Part shown: positions 565 through 16,507 of the stretch, in pieces | Layout: each line of letters opens with the position of its first letter | How positions within the stretch are numbered: the stretch's first letter is position 1 | Origin: an uncultured delta proteobacterium | Lineage (GTDB): Bacteria > Desulfobacterota > Desulfobulbia > Desulfobulbales > Desulfurivibrionaceae | Length of the DNA stretch: 64,000 bases | Direction of reading: 5' to 3' | Assembly (NCBI GenBank): GCA_903869265.1 | Contig: CAIPYE010000015.1 | Location: 186,001 to 250,000, forward strand | Made by a program: the position numbers and the translations under genes | Notes under the pieces: generated by a model | The model's database searches: none | Told to the model about the DNA's origin: nothing | What the model saw: the letters and a program-made list of their open reading frames with translations, nothing else

Positions 565-1467
565 TCACTTGTCACTAGAACCCCCATAGAGTTCGGGATG
601 AACAATTCTGGCCAGGGCTTCAAGGCCTTCGACAAGCCGGGGGGTAGGGCGGTCAAAGAGCCCGGCATCCACCACATAAAGCCGGTTTTGCTGCACTGCG
701 GGCAACTGCTGCCATTTGCGCCACTGGGCTTTGAGACTTTCCGGGCTGTGCCCTCCGGCCATGGAGGTAATCACGACAATCTCAGGGCTCAAAGCCAGGG
801 CCTCTTCCCAACTGAGTCTCGGGTACGGCACCGGTCCGGCTCCGAGATTCACTCCGCCTGCCAGGGTGATCAGCTCATGGGTAAAGGTGCTGGTTCCGGC
901 GGTGATGATCGGCGCGGCGTCAACCTGAAAAAAAACCCGCGGCTTGGAGGTTGCCGTGTTCGCCAACCGGCTCACTTTATCAATGCGTCTGGCCATATCC
1001 CGGGCGAGCAAATCGGCCGGGCCAGAGGCACCCAGTGCCGCCCCCATTCCCTTGATGGCCTCCATGATTCCCCCGGTGTTGTGCGGATCAATAATATAAA
1101 CCGGTATACCAAGGGCCTCAATTTTTTCCACCTGATGTTTCGGATTACCCTCCCTGATGCCAAAGCAGATATCCGGTTTCAAGGCGACAATGCGTTCCAG
1201 ATCGAGCCGCACGTAAGAACCGATCTTGGGCAACCCTTTGGCCGCCTCGGGGTAATCGCTGTACTGGGTAACGCCCACCAGCCTTTTTTCCTGGCCCAAC
1301 GCGTAGATAATCTCGGTGACGCTGGGCGCGAGAGCAACAATCCGCGACACCGTGGTCGGCACCTTTACCAGGCGACCGGCTTGGTCGTGCAGTTCCAGGC
1401 CAAAGGCTGGCCCACTGAGGCACAGCAAGATGATAAGGGAGCAAACTATCCGTTTTGTTTGGTTCAT
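565..1467 (-). CDS. Periplasmic cobalamin/iron-complex ABC substrate-binding protein (BtuF-like)
   Basis: This 300-residue protein has a signal peptide (about residues 1-23, ending SGPAFG) and a type III periplasmic binding fold (cluster BtuF/FecB). The family opening VSRIVALAPSVTEIIYALG, the segment VGVTQYSDYPEAAKGLPKIG, and the later ERIVALKPDICFG are typical. Length matches BtuF-like proteins (about 260-300). It should capture corrinoid in the periplasm and hand it to the FecCD permease encoded 7 bases downstream. It is the second binding protein of the operon, since the CbiZ fusion upstream also carries one. Corrinoid specificity is inferred from the upstream cobalamin riboswitch and BtuB; an Fe(III) chelate remains possible. 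Confidence 0.88.
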   Translation of the reverse strand: MNQTKRIVCSLIILLCLSGPAFGLELHDQAGRLVKVPTTVSRIVALAPSVTEIIYALGQEKRLVGVTQYSDYPEAAKGLPKIGSYVRLDLERIVALKPDICFGIREGNPKHQVEKIEALGIPVYIIDPHNTGGIMEAIKGMGAALGASGPADLLARDMARRIDKVSRLANTATSKPRVFFQVDAAPIITAGTSTFTHELITLAGGVNLGAGPVPYPRLSWEEALALSPEIVVITSMAGGHSPESLKAQWRKWQQLPAVQQNRLYVVDAGLFDRPTPRLVEGLEALARIVHPELYGGSSDK

Positions 1468-1476
1468 TTTTTTAAT

Positions 1477-2340
1477 CTATTCGTGCAGTTCAAAACGCAC
1501 CGGTACTCTGACCCGCATGGCCGCAGGCTGGCCGTTGCGCAAGCCCGGTGAAAACCGCCAGTCACGCACGGTCTTAAGTGCCGTCTCGTCAAGTATTTGA
1601 TGACCACTGCCAGTGGCCACCTTTACCTCTTCCACCGCTCCCGAGGCGGAGACATACACCTCAAGCAGCACGACGCCCTCCTTGCCCAGCCGTCGGGCAA
1701 GCCGCGGGTAAAGAGGCGGCGGATTCACTGCGTACAGGGGACGGGCCAGGACTTCTGGCAGTGAGCCCTGTGGCAGGCCTGCCGCTTGTGCGTTTCCCTG
1801 TTCAAAACCTTGCTCTGTTGGCAGTCCGCGGGTTGGCGGGGATGAAAGCGAATCCCCGCCCGTCGGGGTTTGTGCCAAAGGAGTTTCGTTCGCTGCAAGC
1901 TTCCCATTCTCCCGTGAAAGACCTGCAGCGGTGGCTCCCTTGTTTGTCCTGCCCGAGGCGGAAACGCTCTTGTTTTCAGTCCCACTTTTTGCAAACAAAG
2001 CTGGTTTTTCCGGCAGGAGTGCCTCCTGCTTTCCAGCCTGTTCACCAGAGAGCCAGTGATCCAGGCTCACAGAAATAAACTGGGGCAGGTTCTGCCCTTG
2101 GACACCGGTTGTTGCACCGCCCAGCCAGAATCCCAGCAGCAGGAACATCGCGTGCATGAGTATGGTCAGGGTTGCGGCCGAATAATGCAGCCGTTTCAAA
2201 GCCGCCTCTGGCGCTGCCTCCTCCACGACCTGAGGCAGACAAACCCCTTGGACAGTGGTTCCATCCACTGCCCTGGCAACATAATCATGTGTGGCAACGG
2301 CCTGTGTCACTTCAGTGCACGCCTCCCGTTTCTCCTGCAC
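1477..2340 (-). CDS. tonB: TonB-like energy transducer
   Basis: The 287-residue protein has an unusually long cytoplasmic N-terminus (about 50 residues), one membrane helix near residues 53-73, a low-complexity periplasmic linker, and a C-terminal TonB domain. The domain begins near YPRLARRLGKEGVVLLEVYV and ends DWRFSPGLRNGQPAAMRVRV. TonB couples the proton-motive force, via ExbBD, to outer-membrane receptors; the partner here is presumably the BtuB-like receptor two genes upstream. The start overlaps the end of the BtuF-CbiZ gene by 29 bases, so a start further inside is possible. No exbB or exbD is in the window, so it must borrow ExbBD from elsewhere. Confidence 0.85.
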   Translation of the reverse strand: MQEKREACTEVTQAVATHDYVARAVDGTTVQGVCLPQVVEEAAPEAALKRLHYSAATLTILMHAMFLLLGFWLGGATTGVQGQNLPQFISVSLDHWLSGEQAGKQEALLPEKPALFAKSGTENKSVSASGRTNKGATAAGLSRENGKLAANETPLAQTPTGGDSLSSPPTRGLPTEQGFEQGNAQAAGLPQGSLPEVLARPLYAVNPPPLYPRLARRLGKEGVVLLEVYVSASGAVEEVKVATGSGHQILDETALKTVRDWRFSPGLRNGQPAAMRVRVPVRFELHE

Positions 2341-4306
2341 ATACGCCGTTCACCAGAGACTCAAAGGCCAGGGCGAGAACCGGCGGTAATTGCCCGGCGG
2401 TAAACCGATGCGTCCATGGCTCGATGGCATGACCTGCCAGGGTACCGGACACCGACCTGCCCCACATGGCATATCCCCGCAGATCGGTTAAGCTTCCAGC
2501 CTGCTCCGCATCGCTTACCGCAAAGGATCCCATCATGAAACTCGCATATTCCGATTGCAGGAGGATATTTTCTAGCGCGACGACCAATTGGGGTTTGTTC
2601 AAGGAGCAATTTTCCACTGTTGCTGGCAAGATCTCCCAAAGGTCTATCTTTCGTTCCTTGAGCCGGGTAAAAACGGAACGGTTCGCGGTGATCCCGTTCT
2701 GCTTGGCTATCGCCTCCCGAACCCCATCATACACAGCCCTGGCTATGAGTTCCCCCATTTTCGTATGACCGCCGCTGCTGCTGATGGGGACGCCCTCACC
2801 CTGCACCACTAGGATGTTGTCCGTGCCGGTCCCGGTTGCCTGTTGCTGGGGGGTATAGGTACTGCGAATATCCAGATCTGCGAGGGCCGCGCTTTTAGCC
2901 TCGGTGGCACTGATAACAGCCCTGGCCATGGCCCGTGGACTGAGCCGACTGTTGGTCAGCAGGATGATATTGATGGTGCCGGGTTCGTAATAATTGCCCG
3001 TATCCACAGCCATGCGCATGGCGTTTGTGGCAACCCCTGCGGTCACCAAAGCGTAGACCTCTATGTCGCGGAAGTTCTTCCGGCTGACCACCAGATTATC
3101 CATGTCCGCTCCGGTGAAAAGCAGACTGGTCGCATTTGGATCCTTGCCCAGAACAGCGCAGCTCCTTTCTTTGAGACCTTCGGCTCCGCTGCTGTGCCCT
3201 AATCTCCAAGCGGGGGGGGGATAATAATGATTCCCCACCGAAGTAATGCCCAGCTGTTCGCCTTCCAGAGTGGACAATACCCGTTGCGGAGAAATAAAAT
3301 CAATCACCAGGGTTTTATCTATAAAATCACGGACAAGGCTCTCCACCACCTTGGCTTGCTGCACATAACCAAGGGCAAGCGAAACCTCGCGGGAGCCGAT
3401 ACCGTGGTCCGGTGTGAGCTGCTGGGCCGGATCGGAAAATTCTTTTTCATAGATCCGGGCGGAGAGGGCGGATACGAAAGCGCCGATATGTGCTCCAGCT
3501 CTGCAGGTAAGGTCGCAAGGAAAGTCAAATACCCGCTTGTTTCTAACCGCGTCAATGGTTTGCAACTCTCTATTTGCCAGCACTGCGGCTTGGGCCTTGT
3601 CACCACAGACATAGATGCTCTGCGGGTTAAATTTTTTCAGCTCTTCGACACTTACGGTTATGGCATTGCCATTTCTGCCGAATTGAGGCGGCAATCCCCC
3701 GGCCGCCCGGATAAAATCATTTTGGAAAGAATCATCCCCCGGCACCATGAGTTGCTCAGTTCCCATGAGACGGATCACCCGCTGGTGTTCCTTTGCCGGG
3801 ATCCTCCCGGTCTTTTCCGCGATGATCGCGAGCTCCTCCCGGTTTTTTTCGATGAGCTTCCGGGCCGCATCCTCCTTGACAAAAATTACCCCCAACGCCT
3901 CAATGCGTGCAAACGCCTGATCAACAGAATGCACCGGCTGGTCAATCAGGACTTTGTCCTTTGGGAAATGCTCTCGTACCTGCTTGTGCAGGTCGGCAGT
4001 GATGATCAAATCAGGATCAAGCGCATCAATCCGTTCGATGGAGGGCGCAGAAAAACCGCCGACCAACGTCTTGTCGGCAACCGTAGCCGGAAAGCTGTTG
4101 TGATGGGTTAATCCTACCAGGGCGTTGTCGGCGCCAATGGCAGAAATTATTTCTGCAACAGCCGGAACCAGGCACACCACCCGCTGGGGATGATCGGCTG
4201 AGAACCTGTTGCGCGTGTCCTGCAGCAGGTCTGCCTGGGCTGGGGCAGTTGCCCCAGCCCAAAGCAGCACAAGTATAATAGTGAAAAAAACCGGCTTAGC
4301 CTGCAT
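2312..4306 (-). CDS. BtuF-like binding protein fused to adenosylcobinamide amidohydrolase (CbiZ)
   Basis: This two-domain protein has 664 residues from the ATG at 4306. A clear signal peptide (to about residue 25, PAQA) precedes a BtuF-type binding domain (about 38-290, VVCLVPAVAEIISAIGA). A CbiZ domain follows (about 335-535), with ALVTAGVATNAMR, GTINIILLTNSRLSPRAMAR, TGTGTDNILVV and SGGHTKMGELIARAV, all typical of CbiZ. About 125 residues of unassigned tail follow. CbiZ cleaves the aminopropanol arm of adenosylcobinamide or pseudocobalamin to give adenosylcobyric acid for re-synthesis. A TTG at 4318, overlapping the btuB stop, is an alternative start, but ATG 4306 begins an ideal signal peptide. 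An exported CbiZ is unexpected, because characterised CbiZ acts in the cytoplasm. Confidence 0.88.
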   Translation of the reverse strand: MQAKPVFFTIILVLLWAGATAPAQADLLQDTRNRFSADHPQRVVCLVPAVAEIISAIGADNALVGLTHHNSFPATVADKTLVGGFSAPSIERIDALDPDLIITADLHKQVREHFPKDKVLIDQPVHSVDQAFARIEALGVIFVKEDAARKLIEKNREELAIIAEKTGRIPAKEHQRVIRLMGTEQLMVPGDDSFQNDFIRAAGGLPPQFGRNGNAITVSVEELKKFNPQSIYVCGDKAQAAVLANRELQTIDAVRNKRVFDFPCDLTCRAGAHIGAFVSALSARIYEKEFSDPAQQLTPDHGIGSREVSLALGYVQQAKVVESLVRDFIDKTLVIDFISPQRVLSTLEGEQLGITSVGNHYYPPPAWRLGHSSGAEGLKERSCAVLGKDPNATSLLFTGADMDNLVVSRKNFRDIEVYALVTAGVATNAMRMAVDTGNYYEPGTINIILLTNSRLSPRAMARAVISATEAKSAALADLDIRSTYTPQQQATGTGTDNILVVQGEGVPISSSGGHTKMGELIARAVYDGVREAIAKQNGITANRSVFTRLKERKIDLWEILPATVENCSLNKPQLVVALENILLQSEYASFMMGSFAVSDAEQAGSLTDLRGYAMWGRSVSGTLAGHAIEPWTHRFTAGQLPPVLALAFESLVNGVCAGETGGVH

Positions 4307-4314
4307 ATGTTTTC

Positions 4315-6360
4315 TCAAAACTCGTAAGAAAGGGAGGCAAAGATCGAGCGGCCCGCACCAGGATATTTTTGATTCGTCATTAATCCAGTACCATCGACGA
4401 AGTAGCCCATATTGGTATCATACCCTGCGTTGAAAATATTATTGCAGTTGAAGGCCGCCAACCAGTGGTCCTTGAAGCGCTGGCTTATCCGAAAATCGGT
4501 GGTCATATAAGAGTCCAAGGTGTATTGGGGGTCGGTGGCCGTATCGGTGGCATAGGAAGCCGGACGATCGCCCACGTAACGGACCACCACACTGGTGGTC
4601 AACCCGGAAGGCAGGAAATAGTCAATCTGCCCCTTGAACAGATTGCTTGGCGTGTACCGGGCTTGCCGCCAGACCCCCATGCCTTTTTCCTCTTCCGCAT
4701 TGGTGTGGGTGTAGCTCAAGCCCACTCGCAGAAAATCGAAGGGTTTTGCCTCAAGCCCTAATTCCCAGCCGGTAGCCTCGTAGGTGTCAATATTGGATGG
4801 AGTCCATTTGTCCCCCCACGGACCCGGAAATGCAGGGTTAGGAGCCCAGTCGATTTTGTCATCGATGTTCCACTTGAAGCAGGAGACCGAGGCAATCAAT
4901 TTCTTTTCCAAAAAGGACTGCTCCACGGTGAGGTCGCTATGCCAGCCGGTTTCCGGCTTTAGATCTGGGTTTCCTCGCGCAAAGTCTGATTCCGGCCAGT
5001 AAAGATCATTCATGGTCGGGGCCTTGAAGTGCTTGCCATGGCCGAGCTTGATCGTGGTAGTCTCCTGGGGAGTCAGAACCATGCCGAAACGGGGCAAAGC
5101 TTCATGCCCAAACATGGAGTGCTCCTCGTAACGCATGCCGGTGAGCAGCTTCAGATACTGGTTGGCCTGCCACTGCGCCTCGCCATAGCTGCCCCGGGTG
5201 AAAACCGCATGTCGTTCCTCGGTGCGGGAGCCAGCAACTGCCACGCCGTAAGAATCCAGGTTGCCCACTTCATTGGTATAATCGTAATCGCGGTACTGGC
5301 TGCCCAGCAGTAGGGTGACACCCTCGGGCAGCCGCATCTCCGCCGTTCCCTCCAATCCCAGGACCTCGTTGGTAACCCAGGTCTCCTCTCCTTCGCCTGC
5401 CGCCTTGGGCCATGCTGGACCGTTATTACGCTGGTACAGATAGTTTTTCATGTTCACCGCGTCTCCGTGCAGGCCAAGGGTCAGCCAGGAAATGGGCTGA
5501 CTTTTCAGCTCCAGCGCCGAATAAAGATTCCGGTCGCTTCCTTCGTCAACCAGACTTGCGGCGTCACCGCTGTAAATCCGTGTTCCGTTGACAAAATGAT
5601 CCTGGGTGCCGGCGGGAGGCTTTACCCCTGGCACTCCGTACTCCCGATCGATCAAGGCACCATAGAGGCTGGCTGTCAGCAGTTTGTTCTTGTCATAGAC
5701 CAGTTTGAGAGAGGCATCGTTATGACGGAGATTGCTGTTGTCGCGAAAGCCATCAGTCTCCTTACGGGAGGCTGTGAGATAGTAGCCCAGACCATCGGCG
5801 ACATACATGCCTTGTTCTGCAGCCAACTCCAGCGCACCTTCGCTGCCAAAACCGCCTTTCACCTTGAGAACGGCCTTATCTTGCTGGGGGTTTTTGGTGA
5901 GAACATTTACCGTTCCAGCCATGGCTCCGCTGCCGTAAAGCAGGGAGCCAGGACCCTTGACCACTTCCACACGCTCGATGCTGCCCATCGGCAGCTGACT
6001 AAGATCGGCGGTGCCCAGCGAAGGAGAATTGATGCTGATGCCATTCAAGAAAACCTGAGTGGCATCCCCGCCCATACCGCGGATATGAATTTCCTCGGAT
6101 GCCCCCCCGTAATTGCCATAGGTCCGCCAGTCAAGTCCGGGTTCGTTGGCCAGCAGTTCGCCCAGACTCTTGGCCGGCGAGTCGTCGATATCCATGGCGT
6201 CTTTTATCACCACGGAATTCGGAATATCCCTTAGTTTCTCTGCCGTTTTGGTGGCGGTTACCACCACCTCGTCAAGGCGAGCCACCGACTCACCGGCCAC
6301 AACCGTTCCTGCCGCGCCCAACACCAACGCGGCCGTCATCATATACATTTTCGTTTTCAT
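4315..6360 (-). CDS. btuB: TonB-dependent outer-membrane receptor, BtuB-like
   Basis: The product is 681 residues. ATG 6360 was chosen because GGAGGG sits just upstream and a signal peptide (MKTKMYMMTAALVLGAAG...) starts there; longer reading would run into the riboswitch leader. After the signal, LDEVVVTATKTAEKLRDIPN is the TonB box and plug start. The plug continues to about residue 165 (GSIERVEVVKGPGSLLYG, GTVNVLTKNP). The remainder is beta-barrel strands and ends with the aromatic terminus SIFASLSYEF typical of outer-membrane proteins. The upstream cobalamin riboswitch and the downstream cbiZ and btu-like genes support corrinoid as the ligand. Length is near that of BtuB receptors (600-680). 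Confidence 0.92.
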   Translation of the reverse strand: MKTKMYMMTAALVLGAAGTVVAGESVARLDEVVVTATKTAEKLRDIPNSVVIKDAMDIDDSPAKSLGELLANEPGLDWRTYGNYGGASEEIHIRGMGGDATQVFLNGISINSPSLGTADLSQLPMGSIERVEVVKGPGSLLYGSGAMAGTVNVLTKNPQQDKAVLKVKGGFGSEGALELAAEQGMYVADGLGYYLTASRKETDGFRDNSNLRHNDASLKLVYDKNKLLTASLYGALIDREYGVPGVKPPAGTQDHFVNGTRIYSGDAASLVDEGSDRNLYSALELKSQPISWLTLGLHGDAVNMKNYLYQRNNGPAWPKAAGEGEETWVTNEVLGLEGTAEMRLPEGVTLLLGSQYRDYDYTNEVGNLDSYGVAVAGSRTEERHAVFTRGSYGEAQWQANQYLKLLTGMRYEEHSMFGHEALPRFGMVLTPQETTTIKLGHGKHFKAPTMNDLYWPESDFARGNPDLKPETGWHSDLTVEQSFLEKKLIASVSCFKWNIDDKIDWAPNPAFPGPWGDKWTPSNIDTYEATGWELGLEAKPFDFLRVGLSYTHTNAEEEKGMGVWRQARYTPSNLFKGQIDYFLPSGLTTSVVVRYVGDRPASYATDTATDPQYTLDSYMTTDFRISQRFKDHWLAAFNCNNIFNAGYDTNMGYFVDGTGLMTNQKYPGAGRSIFASLSYEF

Positions 6361-6421
6361 TCCGGTCGTCCCTCCAACCAAAGTTTTCTTTTTGATCCGG
6401 GGGCATCCAAAAAAAAAGGAT

Positions 6422-6462
6422 AAAAAAAATCCCCGGACCGATAGGTATCGATCAGGGGATTT
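6422..6462 (-). terminator. Rho-independent terminator in the btuB leader (riboswitch expression platform)
   Basis: On the minus strand AAATCCCC (6462-6455) pairs with GGGGATTT (6434-6427) and runs into eight T. It lies between the cobalamin aptamer and the btuB ribosome-binding site, where premature termination on ligand binding would shut off the operon. An anti-terminator pairing was not worked out. Confidence 0.8.
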
Positions 6463-6532
6463 CCCAAAATATCCACTGGACCAGCACTGCGCCTCACTGT
6501 CCACGAGAGGCGTGCGATACATCTATATCTCT

Positions 6533-6685
6533 AGGCAGGTCTTCTGACTTCCGGTTCGTCCTTGTTTCGCGCCTTCCCGTTCAAAAACAGTGGCGTGCTT
6601 GCGAAACTCGTCCCCGGTTACAGCGGCGGGCCCGTCCCCGATTCACACGGGGTTCCCTTTTAAGCTCTCTTCAGAGCACCTAAGA
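6533..6685 (-). promoter_or_regulatory. Cobalamin riboswitch
   Basis: Read on the minus strand, this leader has the conserved cobalamin aptamer blocks in order. These are TTAGGTGCTC at the 5' end (6685), AAAAGGGAA, GTGTGAATCGGGGACGG, CCCGCCGCTGTAACC, GCCACTG (near 6590-6596), GGGAAGGCGCGA, and the B12 box AGTCAGAAGACCTGCC (6549-6534). It sits about 170 bases upstream of btuB, with a terminator hairpin between. It should repress the corrinoid uptake operon when adenosylcobalamin or a related corrinoid is plentiful. Confidence 0.95.
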
Positions 6686-6773
6686 TATGAGCGTCAAACT
6701 TAGCGGATTTCCGGCTAAAGTCAACAAATTTATTGGTAGCCAAGGCTGTATTGACAGCTGTAGCTATCAGTTA

Positions 6774-7967
6774 TTAAGCGTCTTTAATCGCCAGCAACGG
6801 TTCCATCCGGGCCAGGCGCAGGATGGGGATGGCGGCGCCGATCAGACAAATGGCGATGCCGACGCCCATGGCGATGAGCCCGATACTGATGTTGCCCGTG
6901 TTTATGACCGAGACAGCGCCGAGCTTGCGGAGCAGGGTGAAGTCCTTGGCCAGATAATGGATCAGGGAATGGCCCATGATCACCCCGGCAACACCGCCCA
7001 TGCCGCTGATCAGCAACGCCTCGGCCAGGAAGATCTTCATGATGTGAATCTGATGGGCGCCGATGGCTCGCAGAATACCGACCTCGCGCCGCCGTTCGTT
7101 GGCCAGCACGGTGAAGGTTGACCAGGCGAGGAGCAGAGCGAGAAGCGAGGAGATAAGGATGGTTATGGAAAATACCCGAAGGATGTCCTTGAGGGTGTTG
7201 CGAACGTCGGCGCCGATGTCACCTCTGGTCATCACCCCGACCGTGGGGTTGACCTTGCGGATCTCGGCCACCACCTTGGACGGCAGCACCCCATCCTTGA
7301 CCTTGATGAAGATGATGGAAATTTTTCCTGGCTTATACCCCCCCGTTGCCTCGGGCGATATTTTGCTCAGATCGTCCATGCGCATGAACACCCCATGGTC
7401 AAGTCCGGTGCTGGTCTGCTTGAGATGTCCCACCACCTTGACCCCTTTGCCAAAGAGACTGGCCGTGTTGATCAGGCCGAGATACTCGTTGACATAGCTC
7501 CCCACATAGACCTGGCCTGGCTCCAAACGCTTGGGTCCTGTCTCCAACCAGGGGGCGATCACAAAATCCTTGTCCTGATCGAAAACAATGACCTGGCCCT
7601 CGTCGATACTGCAACAACCGGAGGAGAGGGTGTTGAGATAGATATGGTAGGTCGCCTGTTTGATGTCCGGCAACTCGCTGATGTCGTCGAAGACGAACTT
7701 ATCCATGTAAAAGCTCTTGACCTTGCTTTCCAGGATGAATTCCTCGGCGCTGCCCTTGGCCTCGACGGGCACGATGACAATATCCGCCCCCAGCCGTTTG
7801 CTTGCCGACTCGATATCCTCTTCCACCGCTTTATTAAAAAGCATGGCAAAGGTCAGCAGGGCGACGAGCAGGGCAACCGCCAGCATCAGGACAAGGTTAC
7901 GGAACATTTTTCGGGTGACGCCTTTCCAGGCGATGGCGACGATGGTATGAGCGTTGCGAGGTTTCAT
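6774..7967 (-). CDS. MacB/FtsX-family ABC transporter permease (permease A)
   Basis: This is a 397-residue permease of the type VII (MacB/LolC/FtsX) group. It has an N-terminal membrane helix (about 16-37), a large periplasmic domain (about 40-270), then three C-terminal helices with the FtsX signature FTVLANERRREVGILRAIGA before the second. The periplasmic domain carries a Cys-Cys pair in LSSGCCSIDEGQVIVFD, suggesting metal or thiol chemistry. The ATG at 7967 starts MKPRNAHTIVAIAWKGV; an in-frame ATG at 8006 would add 13 residues but lies directly against the upstream terminator. It lies downstream of the propeller-cytochrome gene. Its ATPase is probably the LolD-like protein encoded divergently at 9553. 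Confidence 0.85.
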   Translation of the reverse strand: MKPRNAHTIVAIAWKGVTRKMFRNLVLMLAVALLVALLTFAMLFNKAVEEDIESASKRLGADIVIVPVEAKGSAEEFILESKVKSFYMDKFVFDDISELPDIKQATYHIYLNTLSSGCCSIDEGQVIVFDQDKDFVIAPWLETGPKRLEPGQVYVGSYVNEYLGLINTASLFGKGVKVVGHLKQTSTGLDHGVFMRMDDLSKISPEATGGYKPGKISIIFIKVKDGVLPSKVVAEIRKVNPTVGVMTRGDIGADVRNTLKDILRVFSITILISSLLALLLAWSTFTVLANERRREVGILRAIGAHQIHIMKIFLAEALLISGMGGVAGVIMGHSLIHYLAKDFTLLRKLGAVSVINTGNISIGLIAMGVGIAICLIGAAIPILRLARMEPLLAIKDA

Positions 7968-8014
7968 AGGTCTTTGGACTATTGAGGGAATTTTCCCCGG
8001 GTTCATTAAACAGG

Positions 8015-8044
8015 AAAACCGGAGGGCTGATGCCCCCCGGTTTT
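8015..8044 (-). terminator. Hairpin terminator after the propeller-cytochrome gene
   Basis: AAAACCGG-A-GGG (8015-8026) pairs with CCC-C-CCGGTTTT (8033-8044), with one mismatch and a short loop. The T run on the minus strand makes it a rho-independent terminator for the gene ending at 8075. Read-through would be needed to reach permease A at 7967. Confidence 0.75.
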
Positions 8045-8074
8045 CTATAGAACTAAAAAGCTGAAGAAGAAAGC

Positions 8075-9244
8075 TTATTTTTTCTTCGCGGCTTTCTTTG
8101 CCCAGTTTACATCAAGCCCGCAGAGTACGGCATGCGGCGCATCATCGCCTGTGCCGAGCTGCTCGTCATGACATTTGAGGCAGGTGGAGGTCGGCTTGCC
8201 AACCAGTTTTTTGGCAGCAACGTCAAAGAGACGAACCTGACCGTCCATGCGCCACTCGTTGTCAGAAGGCTTGGTGGGATCAACACAACCAGGCAGGATG
8301 GTCTTGGTGCGGGTGGTGATCATCACATACTTGCTGTCCGGGGTGAAGATGGCGTCGTGGGTCTCTTCCATCTTATCCATGGTCACGGAAGCAATGGTCT
8401 TCAGAGTCTTGGCGTCGACCAGGAAAAGGATGTCGCCGGTGGCGTTGGCGATGTACTTGCCATCCGGAGAGTAGTATTGACGGAAGCTCACGGTGGATTT
8501 GAAGTTGCCGTCTGCCACGCCTTTGCGCAGAACCTTGATCTTGCCCTGCTCAAGCGCCTTGGCGTCCAACACAAACATGTGCATCTTGCCGATAACCTCG
8601 CCCATCTCCTTATTGTTCGGAGCGGAGTTGGACTCGTTCATGGTGATCAGAATTTCCTTCATGTCCGGGGAGTTGACGCCGTGGGTGTATTTAACGCCGC
8701 CCTTGACATCGGCCTCGGAGCCATCAAAGAAGAGGTTGTGCTTGATCTTCATGGTCTTCTTGTCGATGATGGTGATGTAGCCCGGCTTGTTCATGGAGAT
8801 GGGCATGTAGAAGTCTTTGGTCTGGGCGGAAGCGCAGTAGCCTGACTTGGTGTTCATAACCTCCTTAGGAACCGGGAAGGTATTGTCAACCAGGACCTTC
8901 TCTGTCTTCAGGTCGCTTTTGCCATAGTGATAAGACTCGTTGGAATGATCCGGCTTGTAGGTGGACCAGTAGATGATGTTACGGTCCTTGTTGTCGATAC
9001 GGGCATCATGGAAGGCATGGCTCTTGGCCTCGCCGATGTCGATCTTGTCCAGAGAGTCAAGGGTGATGGGGGTCTCTGCCTTGGGGTCGATCTTGAACAC
9101 GGCCTTGGCAAAATGGCCGCCCATGCCGGCGATGTAAGCGGTGCCCGCATAGTCAGCCGCATTGGCAGTTGCGGCGCCCAACAGGCCAAGGGCGATAGTG
9201 CCGGTGATCAGAGAGTTGCGCCAGGTAGCTTTGGTGAATCGCAT
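8075..9244 (-). CDS. Exported beta-propeller protein with one heme c motif
   Basis: The product is 389 residues. ATG 9244 follows GAGGAG at good spacing. A signal peptide (to about residue 29, TANA) is followed by repeats typical of YVTN/NirF-like propellers, for example YSPDGKYIANATGDILFLVD and FTPDSKYVMITTRTK. A single CLKCH motif (residues 355-359) near the lysine-rich C-terminus should bind one heme c in the periplasm. The combination suggests a redox or cofactor-carrying role. It is transcribed away from the lolD-tlpA-nosL genes across a repeat-rich intergenic region and is flanked by FtsX-type ABC genes. I do not recognise a named family, and no substrate can be assigned. Confidence 0.8.
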   Translation of the reverse strand: MRFTKATWRNSLITGTIALGLLGAATANAADYAGTAYIAGMGGHFAKAVFKIDPKAETPITLDSLDKIDIGEAKSHAFHDARIDNKDRNIIYWSTYKPDHSNESYHYGKSDLKTEKVLVDNTFPVPKEVMNTKSGYCASAQTKDFYMPISMNKPGYITIIDKKTMKIKHNLFFDGSEADVKGGVKYTHGVNSPDMKEILITMNESNSAPNNKEMGEVIGKMHMFVLDAKALEQGKIKVLRKGVADGNFKSTVSFRQYYSPDGKYIANATGDILFLVDAKTLKTIASVTMDKMEETHDAIFTPDSKYVMITTRTKTILPGCVDPTKPSDNEWRMDGQVRLFDVAAKKLVGKPTSTCLKCHDEQLGTGDDAPHAVLCGLDVNWAKKAAKKK

Positions 9245-9330
9245 TGTTTTCTCCTCATTGTAAATGCCCGTAAGTCGTTGGATCATTCAGGCATCCGACA
9301 GCCAGTGGCTGTCTGTTCACTTATAATAAC

Positions 9331-9369
9331 CTTGGCCAAGGCGGTCAGTTCTCCGATCTTGGCCAAGGC
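9331..9369. promoter_or_regulatory. Two CTTGGCCAAGGC repeats, probable operator
   Basis: The 12-mer CTTGGCCAAGGC, whose first ten bases are a perfect palindrome, occurs at 9331-9342 and 9358-9369, a period of 27 bases. The first copy ends just upstream (in the minus-strand sense) of a TATTATAA element at about 9321-9328. A dimeric regulator could therefore bind inside the promoter of the propeller gene. Protein and function are inferred only. Confidence 0.45.
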
Positions 9370-9381
9370 TGATTTCGCTGG

Positions 9382-9410
9382 TGCGACAAATTGCCATGCG
9401 ACAAATTGCC
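9382..9410. repeat. Tandem 14-bp repeat TGCGACAAATTGCC
   Basis: TGCGACAAATTGCC occurs at 9382-9395 and again at 9397-9410, separated by one base. It lies between the divergent propeller and lolD-like genes and may be a regulator site or a small duplication. Confidence 0.6.
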
Positions 9411-9419
9411 GCATTGAGC

Positions 9420-9448
9420 TTTACGATATTACCACTCGGTGGTATATT
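9420..9448 (+). promoter_or_regulatory. Candidate promoter with an inverted repeat in the spacer, for the lolD-tlpA-nosL genes
   Basis: TTTACG (9420-9425) and TATATT (9443-9448) are spaced by 17 bases and resemble sigma-70 -35 and -10 boxes. The spacer carries the perfect inverted repeat TACCAC-TCG-GTGGTA (9430-9444), which would let a repressor or a MerR-like activator act directly on this promoter. The lolD-like gene starts about 100 bases downstream. Confidence 0.4.
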
Positions 9449-9552
9449 GGCAACCTCATTTTTAAGCAGAGGCAAATAAATTTGCAGGAGATTATTTTCA
9501 TTGGTTTTTTCGCTTTTTTGACCTCCTGCCATGACCGCATACTCAATTTACA

Positions 9553-10242
9553 ATGGGGAAAACCGTGATCATCGAATGCAAGGATCTCACCAAGACCTAC
9601 CCTGTGGAAGACACCATGGTTCACGCCGTAAACACCGTGAACCTTTCCGTTAATAAAGGCGATTTTCTTGTCATTTTGGGACATTCCGGTTCTGGTAAGA
9701 CAACGCTTTTGAGCCTGATCGGCGGGTTGACCGCCCCCAACCAGGGGCAGGTATATATTGATGGGGTTGAAAACTGGCAGCAATCCGACCGGGCCCTTTC
9801 CACCATGCGCAACAGCAAGATCGGTTTTATTTTTCAGTTTGCCAGCCTGATTCCCACTCTTTCGGTCATGGAAAACATCCTGTTGCCCTTGAGTTTCGGC
9901 CAAAATCCCGCAGGCAGTCGTGATCTTGCCTTGGATATCCTTGCCCAGGTCGGCCTGGCGGACAAGGCCAACGCCTTTCCCTCCCAACTTTCCGGCGGCC
10001 AGCAACGGCGGGTCGCCATTGCCCGCTCCTTTATCAACTGTCCGGATATTATCCTGGCCGACGAACCCACCGGGGATTTGGACGAGGAAACGGAAAAGGA
10101 TATCCTGTCCCTGTTCAGACGATACAACGAACAGGGCACAACCTTTGTGGTCGTAACCCATAACAGCGATCTCGCCGCTACCCAGAAGGGAGCCAGGGTT
10201 TTCTCCATGCGCCAGGGTGTTCTTTCCGCGCAACCATCCTGA
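9553..10242 (+). CDS. LolD/MacB-type ABC transporter ATPase (ATPase A)
   Basis: The 229-residue nucleotide-binding subunit has Walker A GHSGSGKT (43-50), the signature LSGGQQRR, Walker B IILADEPTGDLD and the H-loop VVVTHNS. FQFASLIPTLSVMENILLP is the Q-loop region typical of the LolD/MacB group, which energises FtsX-type permeases. It starts the rightward run of genes (tlpA-like, nosL, small protein, permease B, ATPase B, CPFC membrane protein). Because the run carries its own second permease/ATPase pair, ATPase A most likely serves permease A on the other side of the divergent region; this pairing is inferred. Confidence 0.88.
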   Translation: MGKTVIIECKDLTKTYPVEDTMVHAVNTVNLSVNKGDFLVILGHSGSGKTTLLSLIGGLTAPNQGQVYIDGVENWQQSDRALSTMRNSKIGFIFQFASLIPTLSVMENILLPLSFGQNPAGSRDLALDILAQVGLADKANAFPSQLSGGQQRRVAIARSFINCPDIILADEPTGDLDEETEKDILSLFRRYNEQGTTFVVVTHNSDLAATQKGARVFSMRQGVLSAQPS

Positions 10243-10278
10243 TACTTTTAAATTCTCCAGCCTGAGCCAGCTCTTACA

Positions 10279-10806
10279 ATGTTAAAAAGAATCCTCCCCA
10301 TATTTCTACTCTGCTCCGTATTCTTCGCCATTGCGGCCTGTTCCGGCAGCGATCAGGCCGCAAAGAAGCTGAAACTCGGCGATCCGGCCCCGGATTTTTC
10401 CGGGAATGATCTGAACGGGCAGCCTCTATCCCTGGCTGCTTACCAAGGGCACCCGGTCATTCTTCGTTTCTGGTCCACGGATTGCAAATTCTGCCGGGCC
10501 GACACCCCGATCTTCAACCAGTATTTTGAAAAATACAAGGAAGCAGGACTGCGGGTGGTTTATGTCAACCGGCATTCCGACGAGGCAACGGTGCGCAAGT
10601 TCGTGGCGGACCTGGAGATCGGCTTTCCTGTGCTCATCGATAAGGATGGGGCGATTTCAAGCCGTTACAATATCAAGGTGGAGCCGCAGACCATTATCAT
10701 CAGCCCGGACCACAAGATTATTGCCGCCATCCTGGGAGGGGTCAGCGAGGCAGAGTTGAAAAATATGCTGGGTGGATACTTTAATAAAAGCACAAAAAAA
10801 CAGTAG
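10279..10806 (+). CDS. TlpA/ResA-like thiol-disulfide lipoprotein
   Basis: The 175-residue protein has a lipoprotein signal (lipobox AIAA-C21) and a thioredoxin-like AhpC-TSA/TlpA domain. Key segments are GDPAPDFSGNDLNGQPLSL, WSTDCKFC with the active-site pair C69/C72, and the cis-proline region VEPQTIIISPDHKI. Anchored in the periplasm, it probably reduces protein thiols or metal-site cysteines. The next gene is nosL, and a CPFC membrane protein ends the same run, so a thiol-redox relay for a copper or heme site is plausible. The direction of electron flow cannot be read from the sequence. Confidence 0.85.
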   Translation: MLKRILPIFLLCSVFFAIAACSGSDQAAKKLKLGDPAPDFSGNDLNGQPLSLAAYQGHPVILRFWSTDCKFCRADTPIFNQYFEKYKEAGLRVVYVNRHSDEATVRKFVADLEIGFPVLIDKDGAISSRYNIKVEPQTIIISPDHKIIAAILGGVSEAELKNMLGGYFNKSTKKQ

Positions 10807-10817
10807 GTTGTGTAAAA

Positions 10818-11333
10818 ATGATAAATCTATTTTTCAAGATTGGTCCTATCAGAAAGAGTGTGCTTCTTGTGTGCCTCGTTTCCTGCCTCTTGATGGCAAA
10901 TCCGTTGCTGGCCCAGCCCAGCAAGGAAATCTCCCCCCAGGAGCGCTGTTCGGTCTGCGGGATGTTCGTAGCCAAATATCCGGACTGGATAACCCAGGTC
11001 CGGTTGAGCAACGGGACGGTGAAGTTTTTTGACGGGGTTAAAGACCTGATGGCCTTCTCCTTCAATCCGGCCTCTTTTGGCGCGTCTGGGCAGACAATCC
11101 AGGAAATCTGGGTCAAAGACTACTATACCCTCGCCTGGCTTGATGGCCGCTCGGCCTGGTATGTCATCGGCAGTAATGTCTACGGACCCATGGGCCACGA
11201 GTTTATTCCCTTCAGCTCCGCGGCGGCGGCGGAAAATTTCCGCAAGGATCATAACGGAACCAAGGTGGTGCGTTTTGACGAAATAACCGAGCCGCTGGTG
11301 CAGTCCATGCGCCACGGCCAGAAGATGCGTTGA
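10818..11333 (+). CDS. nosL: NosL-family copper-binding periplasmic protein
   Basis: The 171-residue protein has an N-terminal signal/anchor segment (about 13-32) and the NosL signature ERCSVCGMFVAKYPDW, with Cys44, Cys47 and Met49. KFFDGVKDLMAF and YGPMGHEFIPFSSAAAAENF are further family segments. Known NosL is a Cu(I)-binding lipoprotein that delivers copper for nitrous-oxide reductase assembly. Here the signal lacks a clear lipobox cysteine and no nosZ, nosD, nosF or nosY lies in the window, so the target is probably a different metalloprotein. The start is 11 bases after the tlpA-like stop; the following small gene begins 4 bases after its stop. Confidence 0.88.
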   Translation: MINLFFKIGPIRKSVLLVCLVSCLLMANPLLAQPSKEISPQERCSVCGMFVAKYPDWITQVRLSNGTVKFFDGVKDLMAFSFNPASFGASGQTIQEIWVKDYYTLAWLDGRSAWYVIGSNVYGPMGHEFIPFSSAAAAENFRKDHNGTKVVRFDEITEPLVQSMRHGQKMR

Positions 11334-11337
11334 GCCG

Positions 11338-11619
11338 ATGCGGCCCGCTCTTGTTTTCAGCCTGTTCCTCTGTCTGCTGCTGGCCCTTGACGGTGCGCTC
11401 TTCGTCGATGGCTTAAACCGGCGCAAGGCAGAGGATGCGACCCTTGCCCAATTGGAGGTGGCCACCAGCGGTCTGGGGCTCACCGATCTGGCCGTGGCCA
11501 CCGAGGCCCGCTACACCCGGCATCCGGCGGTGAGCGACGCAGTGGCCCCCTTCATGGATCATCCAGGGGCCATCGAACATTTTCCCACCGGCGCCTTCTG
11601 GCTGCCGCCGCAACGCTGA
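11338..11619 (+). CDS. Small conserved-looking protein with TEARYTRHP motif
   Basis: This 93-residue product has one N-terminal hydrophobic segment (about 3-22), a probable signal or anchor, and a short periplasmic part. The C-terminal half reads ATEARYTRHPAVSDAVAPFM and then DHPGAIEHFPTGAFWLPP, dense in His, Arg and aromatic residues. It begins 4 bases after nosL and ends 5 bases before the FtsX permease, so it is translated as part of this unit. I recall similar TEARYTRH proteins in comparable gene sets but cannot name a family. Metal or heme contact by its histidines is possible but unproven. Confidence 0.7.
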   Translation: MRPALVFSLFLCLLLALDGALFVDGLNRRKAEDATLAQLEVATSGLGLTDLAVATEARYTRHPAVSDAVAPFMDHPGAIEHFPTGAFWLPPQR

Positions 11620-11624
11620 ACGCC

Positions 11625-12821
11625 ATGGCGCAAACAAACTTCGAAAAACAGATCAACATCCTGGACTATGCCCTGTCTTCCCTGTGGCGGCACCGGATGA
11701 AAAGCCTCAGCATCCTGCTGGTTTTTGCTGCGGTCATCTTTCTGCTCGCCTCCTTCCAGATGGTGACCCAGGCCTTGTCCGACAAGGCCAAGCAGGTGCT
11801 GGCCTACACCCCGGAGATCACCCTGCAAAAAATGTCCGCCGGCCGCCAGGAAGCCATCCCCCTGGCCTACAAGGACAAACTTGCCGGAATCTTCGGCATC
11901 CGCAGGGTAGTGCCCCGAATCTGGGGCTACTATTTTGACGAGGTTCTCCTGGCCAATTACACGGTCATGGGCATGGATGTTGAAGAAATGCCGGAAGGCA
12001 GCCGCCTCGACACGGCCCTGGCCAGCGGCAAGATGCCAACCCCTGACGAACAGGGCAGGGTGGTGATCGGGCATTCCGTAAAAAAAGCCCTGGACCTTGA
12101 AGGGCGTACTACCTTCTCCTTCTTCCGACCGGATCTTTCCCTGAAAACCTTTACGGTCAGCGGCGAGTTCTCGCGCTCCACCGATATCCTGACCAATGAC
12201 CTCATCGTCATGAATTTGCCTGACGCCCGTGATCTCTACAGTATCCCAGCGGGAAAGGTCACGGACCTCTGCGTCTACGTGGCCAATCCCAAAGAGATCG
12301 ACACCATTGCCAGAAAAATCTCCGAGGCCCTGCCTGGAGTTCGGGTGCTGACCCGGCCCCAGATCCAGAAAACCTATCAGGTCGTGTTCGGCTGGCGCAG
12401 CGGCTTCGGCTCCATCTGCCTGCTTTCCGCCCTGGCGGCCTTTGTTATTCTGGCCTGGGACAAGGCGTCCGGCCTTTCCCCGGAAGAGCGGCGGGAAATT
12501 GCCATCCTCAAGGTGCTGGGCTGGGAAACCAGCGACATCCTGGCGGTCCGTTTCTGGGAGTCGGTGATTGTCTCCGGCCTGGCCTGCATGGTGGGGATGA
12601 CCGCAGCCCACATCCATGTGGTCTACTTTGCCGCCTCCCTCTTCAGGCCGGTGCTCATGGGCTGGTCCGTGCTCCGGCCTGACCTGCATCTTTTGCCCAG
12701 AATGGAGGCTGGGGACATCCTGTTGATCCTGGCCTTCACCGTGATTCCCTATCTCGCGGCCACGGTGATTCCAGCCTGGCGCAGCGCCACGGTTCCCGCC
12801 GATTCGGCGCTGGGAGGCTGA
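11625..12821 (+). CDS. MacB/FtsX-family ABC transporter permease (permease B)
   Basis: The 398-residue permease has a helix near residues 25-45, a periplasmic domain (about 47-260), and three C-terminal helices. The FtsX-type loop SPEERREIAILKVLGWETSD follows the second helix. The periplasmic domain contains AYTPEITLQKMSAGRQEAIP and no Cys-Cys pair, unlike permease A. Its gene is followed after 4 bases by a matching LolD-type ATPase, so these two form one transporter. Such transporters move lipoproteins or act as mechanotransmitters rather than classical importers. Position in the nosL run suggests a role in assembling or supplying a periplasmic metalloprotein. Confidence 0.85.
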   Translation: MAQTNFEKQINILDYALSSLWRHRMKSLSILLVFAAVIFLLASFQMVTQALSDKAKQVLAYTPEITLQKMSAGRQEAIPLAYKDKLAGIFGIRRVVPRIWGYYFDEVLLANYTVMGMDVEEMPEGSRLDTALASGKMPTPDEQGRVVIGHSVKKALDLEGRTTFSFFRPDLSLKTFTVSGEFSRSTDILTNDLIVMNLPDARDLYSIPAGKVTDLCVYVANPKEIDTIARKISEALPGVRVLTRPQIQKTYQVVFGWRSGFGSICLLSALAAFVILAWDKASGLSPEERREIAILKVLGWETSDILAVRFWESVIVSGLACMVGMTAAHIHVVYFAASLFRPVLMGWSVLRPDLHLLPRMEAGDILLILAFTVIPYLAATVIPAWRSATVPADSALGG

Positions 12822-12825
12822 TGAG

Positions 12826-13503
12826 ATGCTGATCGAACTTTCCGGGGTGAGCAAGATTTACAACCAAAGCAGAGCCAACGAAGTGCGGGCGCTGACCGAC
12901 ATCGATCTTGGCGTGGAACAGGGGAGCATGGTCTGCCTCAAGGGGCCGAGCGGCTCGGGCAAGTCCACCCTGTTGGCCATCATCGGCTGCATCTTTCCGC
13001 CCACCAGCGGCAAAGCCGCCATTGCCGAGAGGCAACTGGCCCGGCTGCCGGACCGTTTTCTCACCCTGCACCGACGGGAGACCATCGGCTTTATCTTTCA
13101 GCGCTTCAATATTCTCCCCGAACTGACGGTGCTGGACAACATCACCCTGCCCCTGCTGCCGTTGGGTGTGGGGCCCAAAGAACGCAAACAGCGAGCCCAA
13201 GAACTGCTGGAGCGCTTTGGCATCAGCCATCGGGCCCAGTTTCCGGCCGGGCAAATCTCCGGCGGCGAGCTACAGCGGGTGGCCATTGCCAGGGCTTTGA
13301 TCAATAACCAGCCCATCATCCTGGCCGATGAGCCCACAGCCCATCTCGACACGGCCCTGAGCCGGGAATTCATGGGGATCATGCAGCAGCTCAAGGCAAC
13401 GGGCAAAACCATTGTCATCGCCTCCCACGACCCCCTGGTCTTTGAGCATCCGGCCATTGACCGGACGGTCACCATCAAGGACGGCAGAATCCATGTTCCT
13501 TAA
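12826..13503 (+). CDS. LolD/MacB-type ABC transporter ATPase (ATPase B)
   Basis: The 225-residue ATPase has Walker A GPSGSGKST (40-48), FQRFNILPELTVLDNITLP in the Q-loop region, the signature ISGGELQRV, Walker B IILADEPTAHLD and H-loop IASHD. It begins right after permease B (TGATGAGATG junction) and its end overlaps the start of the next membrane-protein gene by 11 bases, so translation of the three is coupled. It should power permease B. Confidence 0.88.
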   Translation: MLIELSGVSKIYNQSRANEVRALTDIDLGVEQGSMVCLKGPSGSGKSTLLAIIGCIFPPTSGKAAIAERQLARLPDRFLTLHRRETIGFIFQRFNILPELTVLDNITLPLLPLGVGPKERKQRAQELLERFGISHRAQFPAGQISGGELQRVAIARALINNQPIILADEPTAHLDTALSREFMGIMQQLKATGKTIVIASHDPLVFEHPAIDRTVTIKDGRIHVP

Positions 13504-14500
13504 TCCCTGGAGCCTGGCCCTCACTCTTTGCAGCTTAGTGATACTGGTGCTTGGCGCGGTGGCCGGAAAAACTGCAGTGCGGGTCCTGCGTTTCTGGGAA
13601 CCGGGCAGCGACAGCAACCGCCAGATCAAGCTGGAAAACGAGATCTGGCTTTCCTCCACCCTGGTTGCCTACGGCCTGGGCTTTCAGATCATTACTCTGA
13701 TCCTCTTTGTTCTGGCAGCCGACCAGTTCTGCCAGGTCATTGTCGGAGCCATGTGCGCCACCGGCGCTCTGCTGGCAAATTCCTACGGCATGCCCGCGCT
13801 GCTGGTCAAGCTGTTCGGGGTTTTCTTCTACGGCTTCTGGATTCTTATCCACCAACTGGACATCCGCTCGGAACACTACCCCCTGGTGCGGATCAAATAC
13901 CTGGCCCTGCTCCTGCTCCTGCCGCTGCTGGTTCTCGATGCCACCCTGCAAACCCTGTACATCGCCGGGATCAAGCCGGACATCATCACCTCCTGCTGCG
14001 CCGTGGTCTTTAGCGACAGCACCGGCGGCTCCACCAATCTGATGACCGGCTATTCGCAACAGGGCTTGCTCATAGCCTTTATCGGTTCCATTGTCGGACT
14101 CATGGCGATGGGATTGGTCTTGTTGCGGCGGTGGCAGGCTTGGCTGGTGGGCCTCTATGCAGCAGGCTGGCTCTGGTTTTTCGGGCTTTCCCTGGTGGTG
14201 ATCACCACCGTGATTTCATCCTATGTCTACGCCATGCCCTACCATAAATGCCCGTTCTGTATCCTCAAACCGGAGTATCATTATTTCGGCTTTGCCCTGT
14301 ATGGGACCTTGATCCCCGCAACTTTCTTCGGAGCAAGCGCGGCGCTGGCCGGTCTGATGCGGGGCAAGGTTGGATTGGGTGAGATGGTTGATCGCTATCA
14401 GCGGTTGGCGGTGAAGCTTTCGCTGATCCTACTCGTCATTTTTTCAGGGTTGTCATTTTATCACTATCTCAAATATTTGATCAGCGGTGGGGAAGGGTAG
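13493..14500 (+). CDS. Polytopic membrane protein with CPFC motif, NosL-cluster associated
   Basis: This is a 335-residue integral membrane protein with about eight hydrophobic helices. ATG 13493 was chosen because it starts MFLNPWSLALTLCSLVILVL, a membrane helix, and overlaps the ATPase stop. YHKCPFCILKPEYHYFGFAL carries a redox-like CPFC (C253, C256) beside histidines, and SCCAVVFS gives a further Cys pair in a loop near residue 168. Such motifs fit a thiol exchanger or a metal-transfer protein, perhaps communicating with the TlpA-like lipoprotein and NosL of the same run. I do not recognise a named family. No terminator is evident after it. Confidence 0.75.
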   Translation: MFLNPWSLALTLCSLVILVLGAVAGKTAVRVLRFWEPGSDSNRQIKLENEIWLSSTLVAYGLGFQIITLILFVLAADQFCQVIVGAMCATGALLANSYGMPALLVKLFGVFFYGFWILIHQLDIRSEHYPLVRIKYLALLLLLPLLVLDATLQTLYIAGIKPDIITSCCAVVFSDSTGGSTNLMTGYSQQGLLIAFIGSIVGLMAMGLVLLRRWQAWLVGLYAAGWLWFFGLSLVVITTVISSYVYAMPYHKCPFCILKPEYHYFGFALYGTLIPATFFGASAALAGLMRGKVGLGEMVDRYQRLAVKLSLILLVIFSGLSFYHYLKYLISGGEG

Positions 14501-16081: not shown

Positions 16082-16507
16082 CTATCTGCCTGCGCCGATT
16101 TTTTCCTCCCGAACCCTGAGGCACTTGCGGTTGTTGTCATCGAACTCTGTGCAGGTTTTCAGGACAAAGGCTTCCTGCCGGGGATAAAAGGTGCATTTGC
16201 TTTTGTAGTCGCAGGTGTTGCTGAACGAATCCCAATACTGGCATTCTTCGACACATTCCAGATCGCCATAACTGTAGATGGTTTTTTCAAAGAGGCATTT
16301 TTTGGCAAAATCATCCCAGTACTGACACTCACGCACTGCTATGGGCTGGCCAAGGTCAGAAGTCCCGGCCTGCCCCCCTTCGCAGGTCACGGAAAGATCC
16401 CGGTCGCGGTAAACCTCTCCTTTGTTGAGCCGTATCTCTCTGGCCCCGATGGTGCCAGGAAGGGAAACAAGGAAAACAGCCAACAGGAGCAGTAGGCGCA
16501 GATTCAT
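16082..16507 (-). CDS. Exported cysteine-rich protein with an internal CQYWD repeat
   Basis: The 141-residue protein starts at an ATG preceded by AAAAGGAGACGAAT and has a signal peptide ending near SLPGTIGA. The mature part has nine cysteines and a duplicated motif: ECQYWDDFAKKC and, about 30 residues later, ECQYWDSFSNTC. The pattern suggests a small disulfide-stabilised periplasmic or secreted domain. It is encoded 42 bases after the cyclophilin gene on the same strand, so the foldase may share its transcript. No known family was recognised. Confidence 0.65.
   Translation of the reverse strand: MNLRLLLLLAVFLVSLPGTIGAREIRLNKGEVYRDRDLSVTCEGGQAGTSDLGQPIAVRECQYWDDFAKKCLFEKTIYSYGDLECVEECQYWDSFSNTCDYKSKCTFYPRQEAFVLKTCTEFDDNNRKCLRVREEKIGAGR

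Follow-up and report, generated by a model that had tools for sequence, protein, structure and literature searches.

NosL is almost everywhere taken to indicate that nitrous oxide is reduced; it is the Cu(I) chaperone for N2OR, and binding of Cu(I) is known for NosL from denitrifiers (PMC6530538). We asked what NosL might do in an uncultured member of Desulfurivibrionaceae, where a NosL gene lies among genes for two FtsX/LolD-type ABC transporters on a stretch of 64,000 nucleotides, referred to here as the window. A preliminary description of this DNA proposed that these genes form a dedicated metal or thiol-redox route in the cell envelope. Based on sequence and gene context, we consider it moderately probable that the locus encodes a NosL- and NosDFY-like envelope system for copper delivery that uses FtsX/LolD (type VII) ABC transporters.

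Gene content of the NosL locus

Nine open reading frames in a divergent layout were confirmed at positions 6774-14500 of the window, and both the reading frames and their Pfam matches agree with the gene content first described, i.e., two FtsX/LolD-type transporters, NosL, a TlpA-like protein, the membrane protein CPFC, the 93-residue protein P93, and a propeller. The minus strand carries FtsX1 (6774-8006), a MacB/FtsX-type permease of 410 amino acids (Pfam FtsX, E 3.5e-19, and MacB_PCD), and a secreted seven-bladed beta-propeller with one CxxCH, a c-type heme motif (8075-9286). On the plus strand, LolD1 (9553-10242), a LolD/MacB-type ATPase of 229 amino acids (ABC_tran, E 4.6e-33) that pairs with FtsX1 and the propeller in other genomes, is followed by TlpA (10279-10806), a TlpA/ResA-like thiol-disulfide lipoprotein of 175 amino acids with the active site CKFC. 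TlpA matches Pfam AhpC-TSA/Redoxin (AhpC-TSA, E 1.4e-27), and its match to the ResA subfamily is under the cut-off. NosL (10818-11333; 171 amino acids; Pfam NosL, E 4e-34) contains the motifs CSVCGM and GPMG and has a profile score of 118 bits compared to a curated cut-off of 24. The remaining genes encode P93 (11338-11619), with an N-terminal hydrophobic segment, a conserved tail, and no Pfam family; FtsX2 (11625-12821), a LolC/MacB-type permease of 398 amino acids (Pfam MacB_PCD and FtsX); LolD2 (12826-13503), a MacB/LolD-type ATPase of 225 amino acids (ABC_tran, E 1.6e-31); and CPFC (13499-14500), a membrane protein of about eight helices with no Pfam family, for which ATG at 13499 is a better start than the listed TTG at 13412.

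Alignments of 18 and 45 homologs revealed that CPFC has the invariant motifs GAMCA.G, (T)SCC, and P.H.CPF, with invariant cysteines. Its AlphaFold model (pLDDT 88.9) contains about eight long helices. Its fold has no clear counterpart in the PDB, with nothing at E<0.001 and weak matches to helical bundles. In alignments of P93 the tail is conserved as TDL..TEARYTRHP..D...F..HP...HFP.G, and the periplasmic domain of FtsX1 contains a Cys-Cys pair (C131-C132) that is invariant in 19 homologs. In the open-access literature we found no account of a cluster in which NosL is joined with FtsX, nor a description of this gene combination, CPFC, P93, or the propeller family. The recognizable parts of the locus are from known superfamilies. 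Copper biology would gain from the NosL module an FtsX/LolD route as well as two protein families that are still unnamed.

The locus consists of two conserved modules

A profile scan of named genomes with CPFC returned at least 574 relatives, and 80 loci were kept for reading gene order. Among the matches listed, the closest relatives are from Desulfobulbaceae and Desulfurivibrio-like MAGs, with further relatives in Geobacter, Pelotalea, Nitrospira, other Nitrospirae, Competibacteraceae, and others. The exact order and orientation of the nine genes recurs in 26 other loci, mostly from Desulfobulbales MAGs, and this layout is far beyond chance. The run from TlpA to CPFC is present in 46 of the 80 loci and the core, NosL-P93-FtsX2-LolD2-CPFC, in 60, so that conservation extends past close relatives and reaches Geobacter and Nitrospira. 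FtsX2 comes after P93 in nearly all of these loci, while TlpA is absent from most of the distant ones. The nine genes are two modules: module A, (TlpA)-NosL-P93-FtsX2-LolD2-CPFC, and module B, propeller-FtsX1-LolD1. The counts of nine-gene, TlpA-to-CPFC, and core loci indicate that module A is widespread and that, within the closest order-level group, it is commonly joined to module B. The preliminary description treated the genes as one set, but the modules also occur apart: in two genomes (G088 and G195) the propeller lies with FtsX1 and LolD1 away from module A.

Of the 198 Desulfobacterota genomes sampled, 20 have P93, with NosL, FtsX2, LolD2, and CPFC as neighbors in the core order and TlpA in some, and 3 have the propeller, two of these being G088 and G195. 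Within Nitrospirota the propeller is present in 58 of 296 genomes, and 17 of the 20 regions read there contain propeller-FtsX1-LolD1. Modules A and B are linked in Nitrospirota too, with a different arrangement. NosL lies close to the propeller unit at three loci (L220, L229, and L232), where further partners are FtrD-like or CPFC-LolD2; L122 has the same pairing of the propeller unit with NosL and partners, and at L237 a paralogous propeller unit includes a gene of the NosL family. Since the Desulfobulbales and Nitrospirota data are mostly MAGs, these neighborhoods rest on assembly.

Module A is mostly found without nosZ

No NosZ above the cut-off was found in the source genome, which contains six NosL genes rather than one and a single heme-copper oxidase, with a weak CuA-type match at the oxidase locus. 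Across the 198 sampled Desulfobacterota, full-length nosZ above the cut-off is present in one genome (G050). The absence of nosZ noted earlier thus holds for the source genome and nearly all of the phylum sample but not for G050, in which the module-A core comes after nosZ, nosD, several NosL genes, and genes for a NosY-like permease and an ABC ATPase (contig C145; L144 and L052); NosD lies beside module A in this genome alone. A place beside nosZ in relatives was one of the observations that the preliminary description named as counting against its reading. Given that module A sits inside a nosZ-nosDFYL cluster in G050, NosZ can be one client of the system. This does not make NosZ the specific client, since NosZ did not exceed the cut-off in any of the remaining 19 sampled genomes with P93. 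Indeed, since the module is conserved in hundreds of genomes (at least 574 CPFC relatives) and is nearly always without nosZ in the sampled phylum, NosL is unfit as a denitrification marker there.

The locus resembles NosDFY with NosL in that a NosL copper chaperone lies beside a periplasm-facing ABC transporter. However, FtsX/LolD (MacB fold) takes the place of NosFY, no NosD match was found by Pfam among the nine genes, CPFC and P93 are added, and NosZ is absent from nearly all carriers.

Neighboring genes point to copper

We found SCO1 in a run of genes with the core at L041 (Pfam), with look-alikes identified by eye at L044, L037, and L042. CusB and CusA follow CPFC in an operon-like arrangement at four loci (L120, L153, and L155 by Pfam; L152 from sequence), and L153 additionally contains multicopper oxidase domains (Pfam Cu-oxidase). 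PCuAC is encoded just upstream of the propeller in six Nitrospirota loci (L186, L219, and L235 by Pfam; L224, L225, and L233 by tblastn). The propeller unit therefore lies beside copper chaperones, NosL or PCuAC, in differing arrangements in two phyla. Together, the SCO1, CusBA, PCuAC, extra NosL, and multicopper oxidase neighbors support copper handling well, while iron uptake and lipoprotein export are not well supported by gene context. The invariant cysteine motifs of CPFC and FtsX1 and the invariant histidines and CxxCH of the propeller also count in favor of copper. The dedicated envelope route proposed earlier is conserved, and its context (SCO1, CusB/RND, PCuAC, and NosL paralogs) points to copper as the metal, although the route comprises two modules rather than one set.

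The preliminary description suggested looking for a consistently adjacent enzyme; among the loci examined no single cuproenzyme is a constant neighbor. COX1, the heme-copper oxidase family, is present in 16 of 22 module-A genomes compared to 48 of 176 others (Fisher p 4.5e-5, kinship ignored; counted by PF00115, a family that also catches NO reductases), which counts in favor of copper delivery. We rejected heme-copper oxidase as the universal client since, despite this enrichment, it is missing from several carriers. Some CPFC-positive genomes, e.g., G006 and G139, have neither a COX1 nor a NosZ match, and no known copper client is therefore present in every carrier.

An alternative is that the system exports or detoxifies copper, with NosL as a scavenger rather than a delivery chaperone and Cu(I) either leaving the inner membrane or being handed on to CusCBA. 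The operon-like CusB-CusA loci agree with this explanation, as does an excess of RND pumps: 8 of the 22 genomes with module A have one no more than 12 kb away, compared to 0.87 expected from pump counts and genome sizes with pumps taken as randomly placed (two of these pumps are fragmentary and lie where a contig ends). FtrD-FtsX-LolD units elsewhere adjoin HMA proteins. We nonetheless consider export unlikely: by Pfam the set in the window includes no Cus gene, the RND pumps of the source genome sit on contigs other than that of the locus, and SCO1, PCuAC, and nosZ, which neighbor the modules in other genomes, are genes of delivery rather than efflux, making delivery the more likely function.

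Other metals and substrates

Outside copper biology, the locus resembles the FetMP-FetABCDEF iron system of Campylobacter jejuni (PMC10783030), which shares FtsX-type permeases, a LolD-type ATPase, a multi-TM protein, and thioredoxins with the locus. If the locus were an iron-uptake helper of this kind, the ABC and thioredoxin parts would provide redox power for iron reduction or oxidation. FtrD-like and TlpA partners occur in Fet too, which counts against the copper reading, and FtrD-like partners are found in Nitrospirota relatives of the locus. However, the multi-TM protein of Fet carries FtrD-like (DUF2318) and YHS domains, and CPFC has neither by Pfam; FtrD-like is instead a separate neighboring gene in some Nitrospirota. 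Neither FTR1 (FetM) nor a P19-type protein (FetP) was matched by Pfam when the cluster and its flank were scanned (565-14500 of the window), and in their place are NosL and other copper genes, with the NosL, PCuAC, SCO1, and nosZ neighbors indicating copper. An iron-uptake function is thus improbable. Since the defining features of nos and fet were tested and are absent, the locus appears to belong with copper-chaperone and ABC maturation systems without being a member of either.

We give a somewhat lower probability still to the view that the locus is a conventional MacB/LolCDE-type exporter, whether of a drug, a peptide, or a lipoprotein, and has NosL and TlpA nearby by chance. The locus and MacAB/LolCDE (type VII) share the fold class of their permeases and ATPases, and the proteins of the locus score to MacB, LolCDE, and FtsE models, but every NCBIfam score for MacB, LolC/E, and LolD is well below the curated cut-off. 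No MacA-type adaptor or TolC was matched by Pfam among the nine genes, there are two separate permease-ATPase pairs tied to NosL, and the linkage to NosL is kept across phyla. Least probable of all is maturation of c-type heme or thiol proteins (cytochrome assembly) rather than copper handling, a role to which the TlpA/ResA-like protein, the CxxCH propeller, and a five-heme cytochrome gene often found downstream in Nitrospirota would be suited, but TlpA is not constant, no Ccm or Ccs gene was found among the genes examined, and we know of no role for NosL or PCuAC in heme lyase pathways.

A proposed route for copper

Type VII ABC transporters of the FtsX/LolD class often perform mechanical work on periplasmic partners. 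In a copper-delivery system built on them, NosL would take up Cu(I) in the periplasm while TlpA would hold cysteine ligands in a reduced state. FtsX2-LolD2 probably moves no solute; it may instead perform conformational work on periplasmic partners and, with the membrane protein CPFC and anchored P93, transfer copper to the client. A further unit, FtsX1-LolD1, would be reserved for the heme-c propeller. Elsewhere, the core may serve NosZ or SCO1-linked proteins or join Cus export. Sulfate reducers and Nitrospirota would thus gain a candidate copper-delivery system with a client open to direct search.

The propeller as a candidate client

Within the locus, the propeller is the most likely client of the NosL/FtsX/LolD copper route, or a carrier of copper; this is plausible and is the weakest step of our interpretation. 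Alignments of 25 and 19 homologs indicate that CxxCH, H58, H120, C151, H310-D311, and C389 are invariant, and CxxCH, H58, H120, C151, H310, and C389 are kept even in a paralog of 24% identity in the same genome. A paralogous unit on contig C4 of this genome (L056:6667-15948) comprises a second CxxCH propeller, an FtsX1-like permease, a TPR lipoprotein, and a LolD1-like ATPase, and two NosL genes and a multiheme cytochrome lie on the opposite strand. Paralogous units in Nitrospirota (L223, L236, and L237) represent a sub-type that includes a TPR lipoprotein, with the order propeller-FtsX-(NosL, DUF4418)-TPR-LolD.

By Pfam the propeller has a weak propeller match alone, and cytochrome cd1 and hydrazine synthase were rejected as identities on weak or no matches. 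Its AlphaFold model (pLDDT 83, pTM 0.81) shares the beta-propeller fold class with NosZ and the tri-copper thiocyanate dehydrogenase (TcDH), aligning to NosZ (5i5m) over 281 residues (Z 19.9, rmsd 3.9) and to TcDH (8yu5) over 289 residues (Z 19.2, rmsd 4.8). More residues align than for most other propellers, but these Z-scores are tied with those of many unrelated propellers, and the likeness is therefore a hint only. Over the 283-289 residues of the TcDH fold alignment, identity is 13-17%. The sequence profile of the propeller recovered no TcDH or NosZ at E<=1. Several invariant histidines are present in the propeller; the active-site residues of TcDH are given in PMC6504805.

In the TcDH operon of Thioalkalivibrio, genes for two ATPases and two ABC permeases come after that for the propeller enzyme, and copCD is close by (PMC5328954). 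Gene order and fold alignment hint at what may be a striking parallel to our locus, one to be read with the equal scores of other propellers in mind. TcDH differs in that it is exported by Tat and has a multi-copper site, and neither a heme motif nor NosL is reported for it (PMC5328954, PMC6504805). A search for FtsX1 orthologs in 369 gammaproteobacteria, intended to reach the TcDH operon, returned nothing at E<=1e-40; as the sample contained no positive control, this result carries no weight. It is conceivable, though we regard it as unlikely, that the propeller is a new periplasmic oxidoreductase of sulfur-cycling Desulfobulbales and Nitrospirota with one c-type heme and a multi-copper hub site, a distant functional counterpart of NosZ/TcDH whose maturation would depend on either NosL or PCuAC together with the new membrane family CPFC and a dedicated pair of FtsX/LolD machines.

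Other observations

Several further arrangements were observed. A second recurrent one places a YVTN-type propeller, SCO1-like proteins, and a fused cytochrome c/periplasmic-binding protein before module A (L041:3142-9220 and L044:8436-13191). Units of FtrD-like, FtsX, and LolD genes are widespread in Desulfobacterota (L158-L181), some beside HMA heavy-metal proteins, and look like a related metal system. One NosL gene of the source genome is divergent from a gene for cytochrome c552 nitrite reductase (NrfA-type) on contig C17 (L058:9212-12137).

In the window, the nine genes adjoin a minus-strand operon (565-6522) that encodes a BtuB-like TonB receptor, a CbiZ-BtuF fusion, TonB, and a BtuF-like protein. 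We considered the receptor (4315-6522) as a copper entry gate and rejected this because its operon mates assign it to cobalamin uptake; by content the operon is unrelated in function to the locus. At 16082-16507, also on the minus strand, the window encodes a secreted cysteine-rich protein of 141 amino acids in which the motif CQYWD is repeated and for which there is no Pfam family.
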